Assembly: GCA_016180645.1 (NCBI GenBank)
Contig: JACPAV010000019.1
Location: forward strand, 1-64,000
DNA: 64,000 nt
Source of the DNA: Nitrospirota bacterium
GTDB taxonomy: Bacteria; JACPQY01
Reading direction: 5' to 3'
The notes below the pieces were generated by a model, which saw only the letters and a program-made list of their open reading frames with translations, had not been told where the DNA came from and ran no database searches. Positions 1 to 60,173 of the stretch are shown here, piece after piece. Position numbers and translations under genes: made by a program. Each line of letters starts with the position of its first letter. The first letter of the stretch is position 1.

Positions 1-259
1 CAGAATGCCGATTCGTAGGGGAGCATCTTCAGATGCTCCCTCTTGTCGGGAGGGTCTGAAGACCCTCCCCTACGCATAATGACCAACATAAACCTTTCAC
101 AAAATGGCAAAAGTCGATCTCAGAGCCTCTGACAGAATGCCGATTCGTAGGGGAGCATCTTCAGATGCTCCCTCTTGTCGGGAGGGTCTGAAGACCCTCC
201 CCTACGCATAGTGACCAACATAAACCTTTCACAAAATGGCAAAAGTCGAGCTCAGAGCG
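1..259 (+). repeat. Tandem pair of GTAG-bounded REP/BIME elements with conserved tail
   Basis: Two copies of a 132-bp unit (1-132 and 133-259, the second incomplete). Each begins with a 59-bp core (15-73 and 147-205) that opens with GTAGGGGAG and closes with CTCCCCTAC. Inside are two hairpins: GAGCATCT-TC-AGATGCTC and GAGGGTCT-GA-AGACCCTC. Each core is followed by a conserved tail that runs through ACCAACATAAACC and AATGGCAAAAGTCGA. The arrangement matches known REP/BIME elements, whose hairpins carry a GTAG or GGAG foot. The second tail overlaps the 3' end of the BamB-like gene and supplies its stop codon. Further copies lie at 38512 and 48779. No cognate REP-associated transposase was seen here. 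Confidence 0.85.
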
Positions 260-2281: not shown

Positions 2282-3683
2282 GGAAGTGTAGGCGAATCGG
2301 GACTTCGTGTAAACGAAAATCCCTCTGAAAGTGGTGGAGGAGAAAAGTCTGATAGTGGTCCGGCACGCGTCGGAGCGGGTGAACCGTGAGTGTAAACGCC
2401 GGGGGACGACTCCCCGTTTGACGGATGGTCCGGATCGAATATCCACGTCCTCCCACCCTCGGCGGCTGGTACGCCGCGAGCGCCTTCTTGAGGCTTTCCT
2501 GCGCGACTTCATCGGGAACATGGCGGGCGAGCTGCTCGTCCAGCCGATCCGTGAGCGGGAGAATCTGCTGTGTGCCGACGCCCGTCAACCCCGACAACTT
2601 CAGGATGGGGCAGAAGTTGAGATGCGGAAACCGGGAACGCACGGCCCATGCGGCCTTTTCGGAATCCTCGCTTGTCACGCGGTCGCATTGGGTGAGAATG
2701 AGGACCAAGCCCTTCCCCTGCTTGAGCGCGTGGTATCCAAGACGTACATCCTGAACGGCGCCCGGCTCGCGGACATCCATCACCAGCAGCGATACGTCCG
2801 AGTGATCGATGGATCGAAGCGCCTGACCGACGGACTTTTCTTCGAGCCGCGTTCCTACCCGGGCGCGGCGGCGAATGCCGGCCGAATCGGTGAACACATA
2901 ACGCCGGCCCTCGCGGACGAGATCTGCATCCACCACGTCGCGTGTCGTTCCGGCCTGAGGGTCGGTCATCATTCTCGCCTCGCCCAGAAGGGTATTGAGG
3001 AGAGTGGATTTTCCGGCGTTGGGGCGACCGACGATGGCCACGTGGATGGGAGGGGTGACGGCCTGAGCCGGGGTCGGCTCCTGATCCGCCTCCGGAGTGG
3101 GCGGCATGGGCGGTATGGGGGTCAAGTCTTCCAGTTGTTCCCTACTCCTGGAGGCTTTCGATGCGCGAATGCGCGATCGAACGAAGTCCATCAGCGGCCC
3201 GATACCGCGACGATGAACGGCGGCGATGGGGAACGCCTTCTCAGCGGCAAGCCGGTGGAAATCGGACAGGGCCACGGCTTCAGGAAGGTGCTGGCCGCCC
3301 ACGTCCATCTTGTTCACCGCCACGCAAAACGGTTTCCCCTTCTTTCGGATCGTGCGCGCGTTTTCCTCATCCAGCGGATGGCACCCGGTTGTCTGGTCGA
3401 CCACCAGCACGACATAATCTGCATTCTCAATCGCCGCCTCAGCCTGTCGGTTGACGGCTTCTTGAATCCCCTCGCGCCGACCCGGCTCCAGCCCGCCGGT
3501 ATCTTCAATTCGGTAGGTGACGCCCCGGATTTGAACTGTTTCGCCCACGCGATCCCGCGTCACGCCGGGTGTCGGATCCGCAACAGACCTCTCGTAGCCG
3601 AGGATCGCGTTGAATAGAGTCGACTTGCCGACGTTGACTCTCCCGACGATGGCCACCGTCGGGAGGGTCATCCCAGCAGCCAT
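2250..3683 (-). CDS. der: GTPase Der (EngA), ribosome assembly
   Basis: Double-Era-like GTPase of about 477 residues needed for 50S ribosome maturation. Two G domains are visible: the first with GRVNVGKST, DTGG and NKMD, the second with GRPNAGKST, DSAGIRR and TQCD; a KH-like C-terminal domain ends in IRLHFRPW. The first Walker A has Val where Pro is usual (GRVNVGKS). The open frame extends upstream into rnc, but those residues are Arg/Ser-rich and not Der-like. The start is therefore taken at ATG 3683, or four codons later at 3671. It lies 37 bp after rnc, separated by a heptanucleotide repeat. The stop codon lies in the second copy of the 72-bp duplication. Confidence 0.95.
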   Translation of the reverse strand: MAAGMTLPTVAIVGRVNVGKSTLFNAILGYERSVADPTPGVTRDRVGETVQIRGVTYRIEDTGGLEPGRREGIQEAVNRQAEAAIENADYVVLVVDQTTGCHPLDEENARTIRKKGKPFCVAVNKMDVGGQHLPEAVALSDFHRLAAEKAFPIAAVHRRGIGPLMDFVRSRIRASKASRSREQLEDLTPIPPMPPTPEADQEPTPAQAVTPPIHVAIVGRPNAGKSTLLNTLLGEARMMTDPQAGTTRDVVDADLVREGRRYVFTDSAGIRRRARVGTRLEEKSVGQALRSIDHSDVSLLVMDVREPGAVQDVRLGYHALKQGKGLVLILTQCDRVTSEDSEKAAWAVRSRFPHLNFCPILKLSGLTGVGTQQILPLTDRLDEQLARHVPDEVAQESLKKALAAYQPPRVGGRGYSIRTIRQTGSRPPAFTLTVHPLRRVPDHYQTFLLHHFQRDFRLHEVPIRLHFRPWIGRHPKS

Positions 3684-3710
3684 TTGAGATTTGAGATTTG
3701 AGATTTGAGA
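3683..3710 (-). repeat. Four perfect copies of a 7-bp repeat between rnc and der
   Basis: On the minus strand TCTCAAA is repeated four times and runs directly into the ATG at 3683, the probable der start. It occupies almost the whole rnc-der spacer, so slippage would change the distance between the two genes. No Shine-Dalgarno sequence is seen in it. Confidence 0.9.
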
Positions 3711-38511: not shown

Positions 38512-38717
38512 GTAGGGGAGCATCTTCAGATGCTCCCTCCCGTCGGGAGGGTCTGAAGACCCTCCCCTACGCATGATGACCAACATAAACCTTTCAAGAA
38601 ATGGCAAAAGTAGGGAAGCATCTTCAGATGCTCCCTCTTGTCGGGAGGGTCTGAAGACCCCCCCTACGCATGATGACCAACATAAACCTTTCAAGAAATG
38701 GCAAAAGTCGATCTCAC
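38512..38717 (+). repeat. Two REP/BIME elements with conserved tails
   Basis: Cores at 38512-38570 and 38610-38667 have the same hairpins as at 15-73, each followed by the tail ATGACCAACATAAACC...AATGGCAAAAGT. Here the tail has TTTCAAGAAAT where the first locus has TTTCACAAAAT. They separate galE from the convergent flippase gene. Confidence 0.85.
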
Positions 38718-48778: not shown

Positions 48779-48965
48779 CTTTTGCCATTTTGTGAAAGGT
48801 TTATGTTGGTCCTTATGCGTTGGGGAGGGTCTTCAGACCCTCCTGACAAGAGGGAGCATCTGAAGATGCTCCCCTACGAGGAGCCCGAACACGGGAGGTT
48901 AGCAAGTCGTAGGGGCGGATCTTTAGATCCGCCCGTATTGGGAGCATCTGAAGATGCTCCCCTAC
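48779..48965 (-). repeat. REP/BIME elements in reverse orientation
   Basis: The tail (reverse complement of ACCAACATAAACC...AATGGCAAAAGT) at 48779-48818 precedes a core at 48819-48877 of the 15-73 type. A second element at 48909-48965 carries a new stem (GGGCGGATC-TTTA-GATCCGCCC) plus the AGCATCT stem. One outer box is GTTG instead of GTAG. Confidence 0.8.
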
Positions 48966-54319: not shown

Positions 54320-55315
54320 ATGAAACACCCGATGAAACCTGACCGCGGAGTCAGCGTGATCATCACCAGTTGGAACGGCAGGAGTCTTCTCGAACGATAC
54401 CTCCCCACGGTGATGGATGCCCTCGCCTCCTACTCGGGTCCGTGGGAAGTGATCGTCGTGGACGACGCGGGTTCGGACGACACGGACACTTGGATCGCGG
54501 CCCGGTACCCGAAGATCCGCTTCGAACGACTCTCGGCCAACGTCGGCAATGGTCAGACCATGAACCGCGGGGCGGAGATGGCCCGGCACGAAACGCTCTA
54601 TTTCCTCGACAATGACGTCGCCGTATCCACCGGCTTTCTCGATCCCCTCCTTCGGCATTTCGAGGACCCCGCCCTGTTCGCCGTGGCCAGCCGATCCATT
54701 CCGCGTCCCCCCCAGCCCAAGGGTGAATTCAGCGTGCCGCGGTTCAAGCTCAAGTACGGCATCTTCTGGTACTACTACGACACCCTCCCGGACGCCGAGA
54801 CCCGCCCCATTTCGACCCTCTTCGCCACGTTCGCCCACTGCGCCGTCTCGCGGACGAAATTCTTCGAATTGGGCGGATTCGATACCCTTTACGGCCGATT
54901 CTACCTGGAGGATCTCGACATCTGCTATCGCGCCTGGCGGAAAGGATGGAAGGTCCTCGCCGATCCGCGCAGCGAAGTCCATCACGAAACCGCGGGCACC
55001 ATCGGAAAGCTGCTCTCGCGCAAACAGATTGAACGGAAGCTGTGGGGCAATCGCTTCCTGTTCACGTGGAAAAACGTCCATGCTCCCGCTTTCTGGCTTC
55101 AACACCTCGCGCTCCTTCTCCCGGAGGTGGCTCTTCTGCCATTCACGGGCCGCCTCACCTTCTCGCTCGGATTCATCGACGCCCTCCCCCGCCTCGGAGA
55201 GGCCCTCCGGAAGCGGTCCCTGGCCCGCGCGGAGTCGCGTGTCACCGATGCCGACGTGTTGGCCCACCTCGGCCCCTTCACCGCCGATCGACGGACCCCC
55301 CCCCCCTCGGTCTGA
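54320..55315 (+). CDS. Family 2 glycosyltransferase
   Basis: A 331-residue enzyme: VSVIITSWNGRSLLERY, VVDDAGSDDTDTW, SANVGNGQTMNRG, LYFLDNDVAV (DxD) and FYLEDLDICYRAWR. It resembles the N-terminal half of the fused GT at 46549, suggesting duplication within the locus. AAGG precedes the ATG closely. It probably adds a hexose or rhamnose in the cytoplasm. Confidence 0.87.
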   Translation: MKHPMKPDRGVSVIITSWNGRSLLERYLPTVMDALASYSGPWEVIVVDDAGSDDTDTWIAARYPKIRFERLSANVGNGQTMNRGAEMARHETLYFLDNDVAVSTGFLDPLLRHFEDPALFAVASRSIPRPPQPKGEFSVPRFKLKYGIFWYYYDTLPDAETRPISTLFATFAHCAVSRTKFFELGGFDTLYGRFYLEDLDICYRAWRKGWKVLADPRSEVHHETAGTIGKLLSRKQIERKLWGNRFLFTWKNVHAPAFWLQHLALLLPEVALLPFTGRLTFSLGFIDALPRLGEALRKRSLARAESRVTDADVLAHLGPFTADRRTPPPSV

Positions 55316-55321
55316 CCCCTC

Positions 55322-56561
55322 ATGGCCGCCTGTCTCTGCTGCGCCGCGCCCCTCGAACCGTTCATGTCCTTCGGCCGGATGCCCATCGCGAACGGATTTC
55401 TGACTCCCGATCAATTCGCCTCGGAATACTTTTTCGATCTCCAGGTGGGCTTCTGCGAGGCGTGCGGGATGGTGCAACTCACCGAACGCGTGGATCGAGA
55501 CAGGATGTTCAATGAATCGTACGCGTTCTACTCCTCGACCTCCTCCCGCATGGCGGCCCATTTCGAAGAGCTCGCCGCCGACGTCCGGACGCGTCACCGA
55601 CGTCCGGACGCGTCACCTCCGCGCCTCCGATCCGTTCGTGGTCGAGATCGGCAGCAATGACGGGATCATGCTCCGGCATTTTGCGCTCGCCGGAGTCCGA
55701 CACTTGGGCATCGAACCCTCGGCCAACGTCGCGAAGGCGGCCATGGACAAGGGCATTCATACCGTGTGCCGCTTCTTCGACGAGACACTCGCCCGCGAAA
55801 TCGTCTCCCAACACGGGCAGGCCGACGCGTTCCTCGGGGCAAACGTCATGTGCCATCTCCCCTACCTCCACTCCGTGGTCGCCGGCATCAAACTGCTCCT
55901 CAAGCCCTCCGGGGTCCTGATCTTCGAGGACCCCTACTTGGGCGACATCGTCGAAAAGACCTCCTACGACCAGATCTATGACGAGCACGCCTTCTATTTT
56001 TCACTGGCGGCCCTCCGGGCGCTCTTCGACCGTCACGACATGGAAATCGTCGATGTCGCCCCCCAGGACGTCCACGGGGGGTCCATGCGATATGTCGTCG
56101 CTCACAAGGGCGCCCGGGAAGCGTCCGCCGGCGTCCGGAATCAGCTCGCCCAGGAGGAGCGCCTGGGACTCGGACGCGCGGACACGTTCCGCAAGCTCCG
56201 GTCCAGGATCGAAGAGTCGCGAAACAACCTCGTCAAACTGCTCCGCGACCTTCGCAAACAAGGAAAAAGAATCGTGGGCTATGGGGCCACGTCCAAGAGC
56301 ACCACCGTCACAAACTATTGCGGGATCACGCCCGATGTCGTGGAATGCATCAGCGACACGACGCCCATCAAGCAGGGCAAGTATTCCCCCGGCGCCCATA
56401 TCCCGGTCCGGCCCTACCGGGACTTCAGCTCACGCTACCCCGACTACGCGCTCCTCTTCGCCTGGAACCATTCAGGCGAGATCATGGCCAAAGAAGACGG
56501 CTTCAAACGGGCGGGCGGGAAGTGGATCGTCTATGTTCCCGAGGTGAAGATTCTCGGATGA
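55322..56561 (+). pseudogene. Sugar C-methyltransferase gene broken by a 19-bp tandem duplication
   Basis: Two frames together make one protein of about 406 residues, the normal length of NDP-hexose C-methyltransferases (TylC3/NovU type). Frame 1 (55322 on) gives the zinc-binding start CLCCAAPLEPFMSFGRMPIANGFL, with CEACGMVQL. Frame 3 (to 56561) gives VVEIGSNDGIMLRHF, EDPYLGDIVEKTSYDQIYDEHAFYFS, the GYGATSKSTT nucleotide-sugar motif and FAWNHSGEI. The frame is lost at 55579-55616, where 19 bp are repeated exactly; removing one copy restores it. It may be a true mutation, a phase switch or an assembly error. It would make a C-methyl-branched sugar. Confidence 0.88.
55579..55616 (+). repeat. 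19-bp tandem duplication inside the C-methyltransferase gene
   Basis: CGACGTCCGGACGCGTCAC occurs twice in direct succession (55579-55597, 55598-55616). Nineteen is not a multiple of three, so the duplication shifts the reading frame. Confidence 0.95.
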
Positions 56562-56652
56562 TTCCCCCTTTTGGCGAAGGATCGGCCCACGGGATGATGA
56601 ACGATTGCGCCCGGACCCACGGCGCGCTACATTCGGGCTCGGAGCACGGCAC

Positions 56653-57111
56653 ATGATCGAAGGAGTCGCCGTCAAGGAACTGGTCACGCATGCGGACGAG
56701 CGTGGGTTCTTCAGGGAGATGATACGCGTGACGGACGACTTCTTCCGGGAAGGTTTCGGCCAGTGGAGCGTTTCCCAGATGCATACCGGAGTGATCAAGG
56801 CGTGGCACATTCATCGGAAACAAGTGGACTGGTGGTACGTGGGCGCGGGCGTCCTCAAGGTCGCCCTCCACGATCGCCGGGAGTCATCCCCCACCCACGG
56901 CCGCACGATGGAACTCCTGATGGGCGACGGTCATCCGCCCCGCGTCGTGCGCATCCCCCCGGGCGTCGCTCACGGCTGCAAGTGCATCGGCGGTCCGGCG
57001 CTCCTCTACTACATTACCTCCAGAGCCTATGATCCCGCGGATGAAGGGCGGATTCCCCACGACGATCCTTCCATCGGATACGATTGGCTGAAAGGCCCGG
57101 CCATCAAGTAG
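56653..57111 (+). CDS. RmlC-like cupin, dTDP-sugar 3,5-epimerase family
   Basis: A 152-residue cupin: HADERGFFREMIRV, GQWSVSQMHTGVIKAWHIHRKQVDWWYVGAG, KVALHDRRESSPTHG and PPGVAHGCKCIGG. These align with dTDP-4-keto-6-deoxyglucose 3,5-epimerases, though the WHIHRKQ/DWWYVG block differs from classic RmlC, so it may be a related 3- or 5-epimerase or a lyase. ATG 56653 has GGAG upstream. It lies between the C-methyltransferase and three dehydratase-like genes, as expected in a deoxysugar pathway. Confidence 0.8.
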   Translation: MIEGVAVKELVTHADERGFFREMIRVTDDFFREGFGQWSVSQMHTGVIKAWHIHRKQVDWWYVGAGVLKVALHDRRESSPTHGRTMELLMGDGHPPRVVRIPPGVAHGCKCIGGPALLYYITSRAYDPADEGRIPHDDPSIGYDWLKGPAIK

Positions 57112-57127
57112 CCGACACCCGCGGTCG

Positions 57128-58138
57128 ATGACGTCGCCGGCGCCCTCCCTCCCTCCCGATACCTCCGCCTTCTTCACCGGCAAACGTATTCTGATTACCG
57201 GCGGCCGGGGTTACATCGCCACCCGCCTCCTGCGGCAGCTCCGGCAGGTCGAGTGCCGCATTCTCCGCCTGGCCCGGCGGGACGGCGAACCGCCCGAGAC
57301 GGCCTCCCCCTCCGGCGCCGCCACCGTCGTGGACCTCCCGGGCGACGTCCGCGAACCGTCCATTTGGATGAAAGCCCTGGAGGACGTCGAAATCATCTTC
57401 CACCTCGCGGCCCAAACGAGTACCTACGTGGCGAACGAAAATCCGGAGGCCGACCACGAGGCGAACGTGGCCCCCATGCTTCGTCTCCTTGAGTCCTGCC
57501 GCCGGAGCCGCCTTGCCCCCGTCATCATCTTCTCCGGAACCGTGACGGCGGTCGGGATCCCCCAAACCTTGCCGGTCGACGAAACACACGCGGATCATCC
57601 CATTACCGTGTATGATCTGCACAAGCTCATGGCGGAATCGTACCTCAAATACTACTCGGAACAGGGGATCGCCCGAGGCGTGATCCTGCGGCTCTCGAAC
57701 GTCTACGGCCCCGGTCCCCGCAGCAGCAAGCCCGATCGGGGCATCCTCAACTCGATGGTCCGACGCGCGCTGCAAGGCGAAGCGCTGACCGTTTACGGCG
57801 AGGGCAACCTCCTGCGCGACTATGTCTTCGTGGACGACGTGGCTCAGGCCCTCCTCCGGGCCGCGCAGAATGCGGATACACTCGCCGGCCGCCATTTCAT
57901 TGTCAGCAGCGGGACCGGCCACACCCTGACGCAAGCCGCCGACTGCGTGGCTGCCCGCGTGGCGGCCAAGACCGGCAGAACCGTCCCCGTCCGCCACGTC
58001 CCCCCGCCCCATCTTCAATCCCCGATTGAAGCGCGCAACTTCGTAGGCAACCCCAAACGTTTCTCCGATGCCACCGGCTGGGCGCCCGTCACCTCGCTGC
58101 CGAACGGCATCGATCACACCATCGAGGCCGCCTTGTGA
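57128..58138 (+). CDS. NAD-dependent sugar epimerase/dehydratase 1
   Basis: A 336-residue extended SDR: RILITGGRGYIATRLL (NAD), FHLAAQTSTYV, FSGTVTAVG, catalytic YDLHK, LRLSNVYGPGPRSSKPDRG and RDYVFVDDVAQALL. The catalytic pattern is intact, but the partner Ser/Thr region is unusual (SGTVTAVG). It may make a 4-keto or epimerised nucleotide sugar. It overlaps the next gene by four bases (GTGA). Confidence 0.85.
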   Translation: MTSPAPSLPPDTSAFFTGKRILITGGRGYIATRLLRQLRQVECRILRLARRDGEPPETASPSGAATVVDLPGDVREPSIWMKALEDVEIIFHLAAQTSTYVANENPEADHEANVAPMLRLLESCRRSRLAPVIIFSGTVTAVGIPQTLPVDETHADHPITVYDLHKLMAESYLKYYSEQGIARGVILRLSNVYGPGPRSSKPDRGILNSMVRRALQGEALTVYGEGNLLRDYVFVDDVAQALLRAAQNADTLAGRHFIVSSGTGHTLTQAADCVAARVAAKTGRTVPVRHVPPPHLQSPIEARNFVGNPKRFSDATGWAPVTSLPNGIDHTIEAAL

Positions 58139-59196
58139 AATCCCGCCCTCGCCCACGCCGGCGTACCGGCCATGGCCCGGCGCGGAAGCGCGCGCCGACA
58201 CGACGCGTGGCAAGCACCCGCCCGTCGGCCTCCGTCAACGTCCTCGTCATCGGAGGGGCGGGCTTCGTGGGCGCGAACATGGTTCGCCGATGCCTCGCGG
58301 AACCCGGAAGCCGCGTCACCGTCATGGACTCCCTCGACCCTCACCTCCACGCGACCACGAACAACCTCCAAAGCGTATGGAGCCGGATCAGGTTCGTCCG
58401 CGGCGATCTGCGGGACGAAAGCCTGCTCGCGGAATTGGTGCAAGGCCAGGACGTCATCTTCAACTGCGCCGCCCAGACCTCCCATCCCCTGTCGATCCAG
58501 TACCCCCTGCTCGATGCCGACATCAACTGCCTGGGGAATCTGAAGCTCCTCGAAACCGTCCGCCACCTGAACCGAAAGGCGGTCGTGGTGTACACATCGA
58601 GCAGCACGGTCGTCGGAAAAAGTCGCCGCGCCATGATCGACGAGGACCATCCGGAGAGGCCGCTGGAAATCTATTCCGCCAACAAGAGCGCCGCCGAGAA
58701 GTACTACCGGATCTACAACACCCTTCACGATCTGAAAACCGTCGTCCCCCGCTTCGCGAACCTCTATGGCCCCTTCGGCAAGGGATATCCCGAGTTCGGG
58801 TTCATCAACTACTTCATCCACCTTGCCCGGACCGGAAAAGAGATCACCCTCTACGGCGCGGGCAACCAGGTTCGAAACGTCATGTACGTGGAAGACGCCA
58901 CCGACCTCCTCTGGACGGCCTGGCAGCAACCTCGCGTCTTCGGCCACCTCTTCTTCGCCACCGGCGACGAGCATCTGTCCGTCGCCGACATCGCAAGGAC
59001 CATTGTCCGGGTGTTCCGCAAGGGGAAGGTCGTCCACATCGCCTGGCCCGATGAGCGCAAGCGCATCGAAATCGACAGCGCCAAGTTCTCGTCCGGCAAA
59101 ATTCGCGCCCTCACCGGGTGGAAACCTCGTTACACCTTGGCCCAGGGTCTCGAACGCACTCTCGCCGAAATCCAGCCGTCCCCGGCCGGGAAATGA
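58135..59196 (+). CDS. NAD-dependent sugar epimerase/dehydratase 2
   Basis: A protein of up to 353 residues, GTG start. After a basic N-terminal extension (RPRPRRRTGHGPARKRAP) comes NVLVIGGAGFVGANMV, FNCAAQTSHPLSIQ, YTSSSTVVG, YSANKSAAEKYY, NLYGPFGKGYPEFGFINYF and NVMYVEDATDLL. This is a full extended SDR. The extension is unusual; a later start is possible but no good ATG is present before the NAD motif. It overlaps both neighbours by four bases. Confidence 0.84.
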   Translation: MKSRPRPRRRTGHGPARKRAPTRRVASTRPSASVNVLVIGGAGFVGANMVRRCLAEPGSRVTVMDSLDPHLHATTNNLQSVWSRIRFVRGDLRDESLLAELVQGQDVIFNCAAQTSHPLSIQYPLLDADINCLGNLKLLETVRHLNRKAVVVYTSSSTVVGKSRRAMIDEDHPERPLEIYSANKSAAEKYYRIYNTLHDLKTVVPRFANLYGPFGKGYPEFGFINYFIHLARTGKEITLYGAGNQVRNVMYVEDATDLLWTAWQQPRVFGHLFFATGDEHLSVADIARTIVRVFRKGKVVHIAWPDERKRIEIDSAKFSSGKIRALTGWKPRYTLAQGLERTLAEIQPSPAGK

Positions 59197-60173
59197 GAAT
59201 CGTTGTCACGGGCGCCCTCGGCCATATCGGATCGCGCCTGATCCGCGAACTCCCCGCGGCGGTCCCGGGGGCCGACATGGTCATGCTGGACGACCTGTCC
59301 ACTCAGCGTCACGCCTCCCTCTTCCACCTCCCCGCGGGGAGCTACCGCTTCATCGAGGGGGACGTGCTCACCTTCGACCTGGATTCGTTGCTTGCCGGGG
59401 CGGAGGTGGTCGTCCACCTCGCCGCCGTGACCGACGCCGCCACCAGCTTCCACCACGCGGATCGTGTCCGCGAAGTGAATCTCGTCGGAACGGAGAAAGT
59501 GGCCCGCGCCTGCCTTCAACAAAGATGCCGCATGATCTTCCCGTCCACCACGAGCGTGTACGGCTCCCAGGCCGCCACCGTCGATGAAGATTGTCCGGAA
59601 CCGGATCTGAAACCCCAAAGCCCCTACGCCGAGTCCAAGCTGGAGGCCGAGCGTCTCCTGACCCGAATGTCCGCGCAGGAAGGGCTCCACAGCGTCATCC
59701 TGCGATTCGGAACGATCTTCGGAACGTCCCCCGGAATGCGCTTCCATACCGCCATCAACAAGTTCTGCTGGCAGGCCGTACACGGGCAGCCCCTCTCCGT
59801 CTGGCGTACGGCCCTCCACCAGCGCCGACCGTACCTGGACCTCGGGGACGCCGTCTCGGCCATCCGGCACGTCATCGACAAGGGTCTGTTCGACGGACGG
59901 ATCTACAACGTCGTCACCTCCAACCTCACCGTGGAGGAGGTCATTCACACCCTGTCCAGGTTCATCCCCGGCGTCCGGATCGAATACGTGGATGCGCCGA
60001 TCATGAATCAACTCTCCTACACCGTCGCCGGCGAGCGCTTCGCCTCGACCGGATTCGCCTACCACGGGAACGTGGAAGCCGGCATCCGGGAGACCCTCCA
60101 GTGGTTGAAGCAGGCCCAGTCCGCTCGCGGGGAGATCGGCGCCTCGCCGGTCGATTCTATCCCGCGCCGCTGA
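59193..60173 (+). CDS. NAD-dependent sugar epimerase/dehydratase 3
   Basis: A 326-residue extended SDR: MRIVVTGALGHIGSRLI, VVHLAAVTDAATSF, FPSTTSVYGSQ, YAESKLEAERLL, LRFGTIFGTSPGMRFHTAIN and RRPYLDLGDAVSAI. ATG 59193 overlaps the previous stop (ATGA). The three tandem SDR genes are probably translated together and convert one nucleotide sugar stepwise. Its end overlaps the convergent glycosyltransferase by 17 bp. Confidence 0.86.
   Translation: MRIVVTGALGHIGSRLIRELPAAVPGADMVMLDDLSTQRHASLFHLPAGSYRFIEGDVLTFDLDSLLAGAEVVVHLAAVTDAATSFHHADRVREVNLVGTEKVARACLQQRCRMIFPSTTSVYGSQAATVDEDCPEPDLKPQSPYAESKLEAERLLTRMSAQEGLHSVILRFGTIFGTSPGMRFHTAINKFCWQAVHGQPLSVWRTALHQRRPYLDLGDAVSAIRHVIDKGLFDGRIYNVVTSNLTVEEVIHTLSRFIPGVRIEYVDAPIMNQLSYTVAGERFASTGFAYHGNVEAGIRETLQWLKQAQSARGEIGASPVDSIPRR

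Follow-up and report, generated by a model that had tools for sequence, protein, structure and literature searches.

A 19-bp tandem duplication breaks, as assembled, a sugar C-methyltransferase gene in a cassette that probably was already losing genes

The sugar 3-C-methyltransferases TcaB9 (PDB 3NDI/4E2X), 5T64 and 4RV9, the last acting in mycarose methylation, combine a zinc domain, a SAM domain and a C-terminal domain, and working members of the family are encoded in a single frame of ~410 codons. Genes for surface sugars can be switched by changes in repeat number. In simple-sequence-repeat contingency loci, the number of repeats sets the reading frame, and in the pneumococcal capsule genes cap3A, cap8E and tts, reversible sequence duplications are reported (Waite 2001, 2003, as cited in PMC4243769 and PMC4022640). 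Here, we analyzed a gene in a stretch of 64,000 nucleotides (the window) that has all three domains of the characterized C-methyltransferases but, unlike in those enzymes, its two parts lie in different frames because of a duplication (Table 1). As in the pneumococcal genes, a short tandem duplication breaks a polysaccharide gene and could in principle collapse; however, reversion has been observed there, whereas our case consists of one assembly of an uncultivated environmental bacterium and has shown no variation. The locus also resembles the contingency loci in that repeat number changes the frame of a surface-sugar gene, but instead of a many-copy tract of short units, it contains two copies of a 19-mer that are not conserved in relatives.

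Table 1. Duplication, broken gene and surrounding sugar cassette in the window
Feature	Position	Strand	Remark
N-terminal C-methyltransferase ORF	55322..55660	+	PF08421 zinc domain, out-of-frame tail past the duplication, TGA stop
C-terminal C-methyltransferase ORF	55512..56561	+	PF13489 SAM domain and PF08484; residues before ~55598 out of frame
Copy 1 of the 19-bp unit CCGACGTCCGGACGCGTCA	55578..55596	+	window self-match
Copy 2 of CCGACGTCCGGACGCGTCA	55597..55615	+	identical to copy 1; self-match runs 2 bases further, to 55617
Family 2 glycosyltransferase, intact	54320..55315	+	upstream of the C-methyltransferase, likewise in the family relative (L052)
32-codon mini-ORF MIPPFGEGSAHGMMNDCARTHGALHSGSEHGT	56558..56656	+	probable relic of a DegT/DnrJ/EryC1 aminotransferase
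RmlC-like sugar epimerase (cupin), intact	56656..57111	+	same place in relatives
Three NAD-dependent sugar epimerases/dehydratases, intact	57128-58138, 58135-59196, 59118-60173	+	same order in L052

The first ORF matches PF08421 over the whole profile (E 5e-20) and contains the CxxC...CxxC pattern, and the C-terminal frame matches the SAM-binding PF13489 (E 2e-13) and PF08484 (E 6e-55). Among solved structures, residues 32-348 of the second part were most similar to 5T64 (E 5e-111), with TcaB9 at E 2e-108. Catalysis in TcaB9 reportedly proceeds via the histidine of an NVMCH motif together with a YDEH motif, and both motifs are present in the window gene. Judging from these domains and motifs, the gene is by descent a TylCIII/TcaB9-type sugar 3-C-methyltransferase, broken as written: instead of the single family-length frame, there are two parts in frames offset by one 19-bp unit, and the positions of the ORFs and domains bear out the earlier note in placing the halves in different frames. 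A search of this genome for a compensating C-methyltransferase paralogue yielded weak matches only. The C-terminal part of the enzyme matches a betaproteobacterial MAG (L025) at 76% vs 67% for the family relative (L052), and sequence comparison suggests that the cassette moved horizontally.

The exact 19-bp direct repeat reported in the earlier note was confirmed, with its coordinates, 55579-55616, one base off at each end. The self-match of CCGACGTCCGGACGCGTCA spans 21 bp, which gives a head-to-tail array of 40 bp ending at 55617, and none of 100 shuffles contained two matches. Allowing up to 3 mismatches, there was no third site elsewhere in the window; the 17-mer core of the unit, with up to 1 mismatch, had no site in the 4.72-Mb genome beyond the two array copies, and the 21-bp unit had no match in the viral contigs searched. 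The unit includes two overlapping palindromes, CGTCCGGACG and GACGCGTC. As single-stranded DNA, the two copies are predicted to fold into a hairpin with a 12-bp stem (-16.4 kcal/mol, z -3.2, below all 200 shuffles), with a small excess in the wider 81-nt context (z -1.3). Structure-aided slippage is thus a plausible origin; a literature search on palindrome-driven tandem duplication gave no match.

An uninterrupted ORF crosses the site in each of the 80 genome-collection loci and in a genome of the same family (L003; L003 and L052 denote the same contig of this family relative), so that the comparison with related genomes proposed in the earlier note uncovered no frame break in these relatives. 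The repeat is absent at this site from the DNA of the nearest relatives, and a search of the family relative for CCGACGTCCGGACGCGTCA, allowing up to 2 mismatches, gave no hit. Furthermore, of eight relatives aligned in detail, seven have exactly 8 codons (24 nt) between the flanks of the array, by alignment coordinates, the spacing in the eighth (L028) not being counted; in the window, the distance is 43 nt, that is, 24 + 19. Because all relatives read through the site, seven of them with this 8-codon spacing, the duplication is younger than the split from every relative compared. Near-invariant residues are changed at 0 of 17 positions in the first half and 1 of 93 in the second (1/110 overall), which is in the range of intact relatives, and in alignment with the relatives, differences in both halves fall mostly at third codon positions. 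Since both halves still look fully constrained, the event is likely to be recent on an evolutionary scale, albeit one set by a long branch, as third-position divergence from the nearest relatives is ~50%. The 60 relatives searched include no genome of the same genus, the nearest belonging to another genus of the same family; the species is represented by one genome, and the genome collection holds no near-identical record. The earlier note's descriptions of the gene as otherwise undecayed, and of the change as recent if real, therefore agree with the read-through in relatives and with the conserved columns, which also mark the change as derived.

Taken together, these observations are probably best explained, on balance, by a recent frame-breaking slippage duplication that created a null or population-variant allele in a cassette already losing genes. 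Under this scenario, DNA polymerase would have slipped at the palindrome-rich segment, producing a sporadic 19-bp tandem duplication that threw the cassette's only C-methyltransferase gene out of frame. Translation from 55322 would stop at 55660, between the zinc and SAM domains, so that the complete enzyme would not be made, its activity would be lost, and the sugar assembled by the cassette would presumably lack the C-methyl group. Among the three options considered in the earlier note, we prefer a null mutation. The split gene might still be active if both pieces were translated, the second either by a restart near the GTG at 55638, which is in frame, lies just before the SAM motif and is upstream of the stop of the first ORF, or by ribosomes shifting +1 ahead of that stop at 55660. 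We regard this as most improbable: the constraint still visible in both halves would fit such activity but is equally well accounted for by recency, no known slippery stop context was seen where the first ORF terminates (CAA TGA), and no relative has a split gene.

A more substantial concern, albeit one we consider unlikely to be the explanation, is an assembly artefact, in which an overlap was written twice, by the assembler or at a contig join, and cells carry just one copy. The genome is a draft in 65 contigs, both gene halves are undecayed, and two contig ends have exactly 99 bp in common, a pattern typical of de Bruijn graph assemblies from short reads. However, the 40-bp array fits in one ~99-bp word, so reads should span it and an error becomes less likely; there are no Ns, and no 20-mer recurs in the single-copy sequence that could seed a false loop. 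Nor would such a fault be systematic, given that 2.64 Mb contain no other array of period 19, 20 or 99. Systematic duplication by the assembler at its word length was also considered and rejected, as the census of arrays in 2.64 Mb contained no matching periods. The two-copy allele is probably real in cells.

The slippage duplication, as the preferred reading, fits the state of the surrounding cassette. In the family relative (L052), the gene order is glycosyltransferase, C-methyltransferase, DegT-type aminotransferase, RmlC-like epimerase and three NAD-dependent sugar genes. This order recurs in the window, except that the aminotransferase is missing and only ~95 bp separate the methyltransferase stop from the next start. 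Most relatives carry the DegT-type gene between the C-methyltransferase and the next gene, and several others also lack it. The mini-ORF in this gap overlaps each neighbouring gene by ATGA and contains MMNDCARTHGALHSG, which is similar to the conserved VIEDCAQAHGALYNG of the aminotransferase. Against a profile of 44 aminotransferases, this stretch reached 9.2 bits, the highest score among 7,992 pieces of the window translated in six frames, followed by an unrelated piece at 6.7, a score that is weak on its own; because of its place, strand and frame, the mini-ORF is nevertheless probably an aminotransferase relic. Being more diverged than the methyltransferase, the relic indicates that the aminotransferase was probably lost before the C-methyltransferase broke, and this older loss would fit a cassette under relaxed selection. 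Other DegT-type genes exist in the genome (the best is 60% identical), so the function may have survived this loss. What is new here is the reduction of the aminotransferase to a probable relic and, with it, a cassette that was probably eroding before the duplication arose; the two changes together would illustrate the gene-by-gene erosion of such sugar cassettes.

With the aminotransferase already reduced to a probable relic, loss under relaxed selection is more likely than a regulated switch. A selected reversible phase switch, in which frequent gain and loss of the second copy would toggle a surface sugar between methylated and unmethylated forms, could draw on the exact head-to-tail copies in a surface-polysaccharide-type gene, on the hairpin-forming unit and on the documented pneumococcal precedent; since the pneumococcal duplications reportedly revert, reversibility in principle is not in doubt. 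We nevertheless consider such a switch improbable. There are only two copies, both repeat and unit are absent from the nearest relatives, so that the site lacks the conservation of a repeat-driven phase-variable locus, and a gene of the same cassette has already been lost. The switch put forward in the earlier note thus gained no positive support beyond the general collapsibility of tandem duplications, and a live, selected on/off switch of C-methylation through gain and loss of a hairpin-forming, palindrome-rich 19-mer in an environmental bacterium seems very improbable. As it stands, the locus is a routine frame-breaking duplication in the draft genome of an uncultivated bacterium; it would gain significance only if both forms coexisted in reads, as a case of duplication-based surface variation outside pathogens.

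The rest of the genome likewise contains no further locus of this kind in the 2.64 of 4.72 Mb covered. In that portion, we identified 17 exact tandem arrays of period at least 18, and the array at 55578 was the only exact tandem duplication of period at least 15 that shifts the frame inside a gene. Frame shifts were called with a crude score, from codon usage on either side of each array, requiring strong coding in the period-shifted frame.

Other repeats are abundant. A palindromic interspersed repeat (GGAGCATCTTCAGATGCTCC ... GGGAGGGTCTGAAGACCCTCCC) has copies at window positions 1-258, 38517-38570 and 48826-48960, the window starting with a 132-bp tandem pair of it; parts of this repeat occur in 53 to 63 exact copies in 2.64 Mb and lie at many contig ends. 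Additionally, tandem arrays of 7-bp units, such as that at window positions 3682-3710, are strongly over-represented: among arrays of at least three copies in 2.64 Mb, 28 have a 7-bp unit, whereas the remaining unit lengths between 4 and 12 account for 0 to 4 each.
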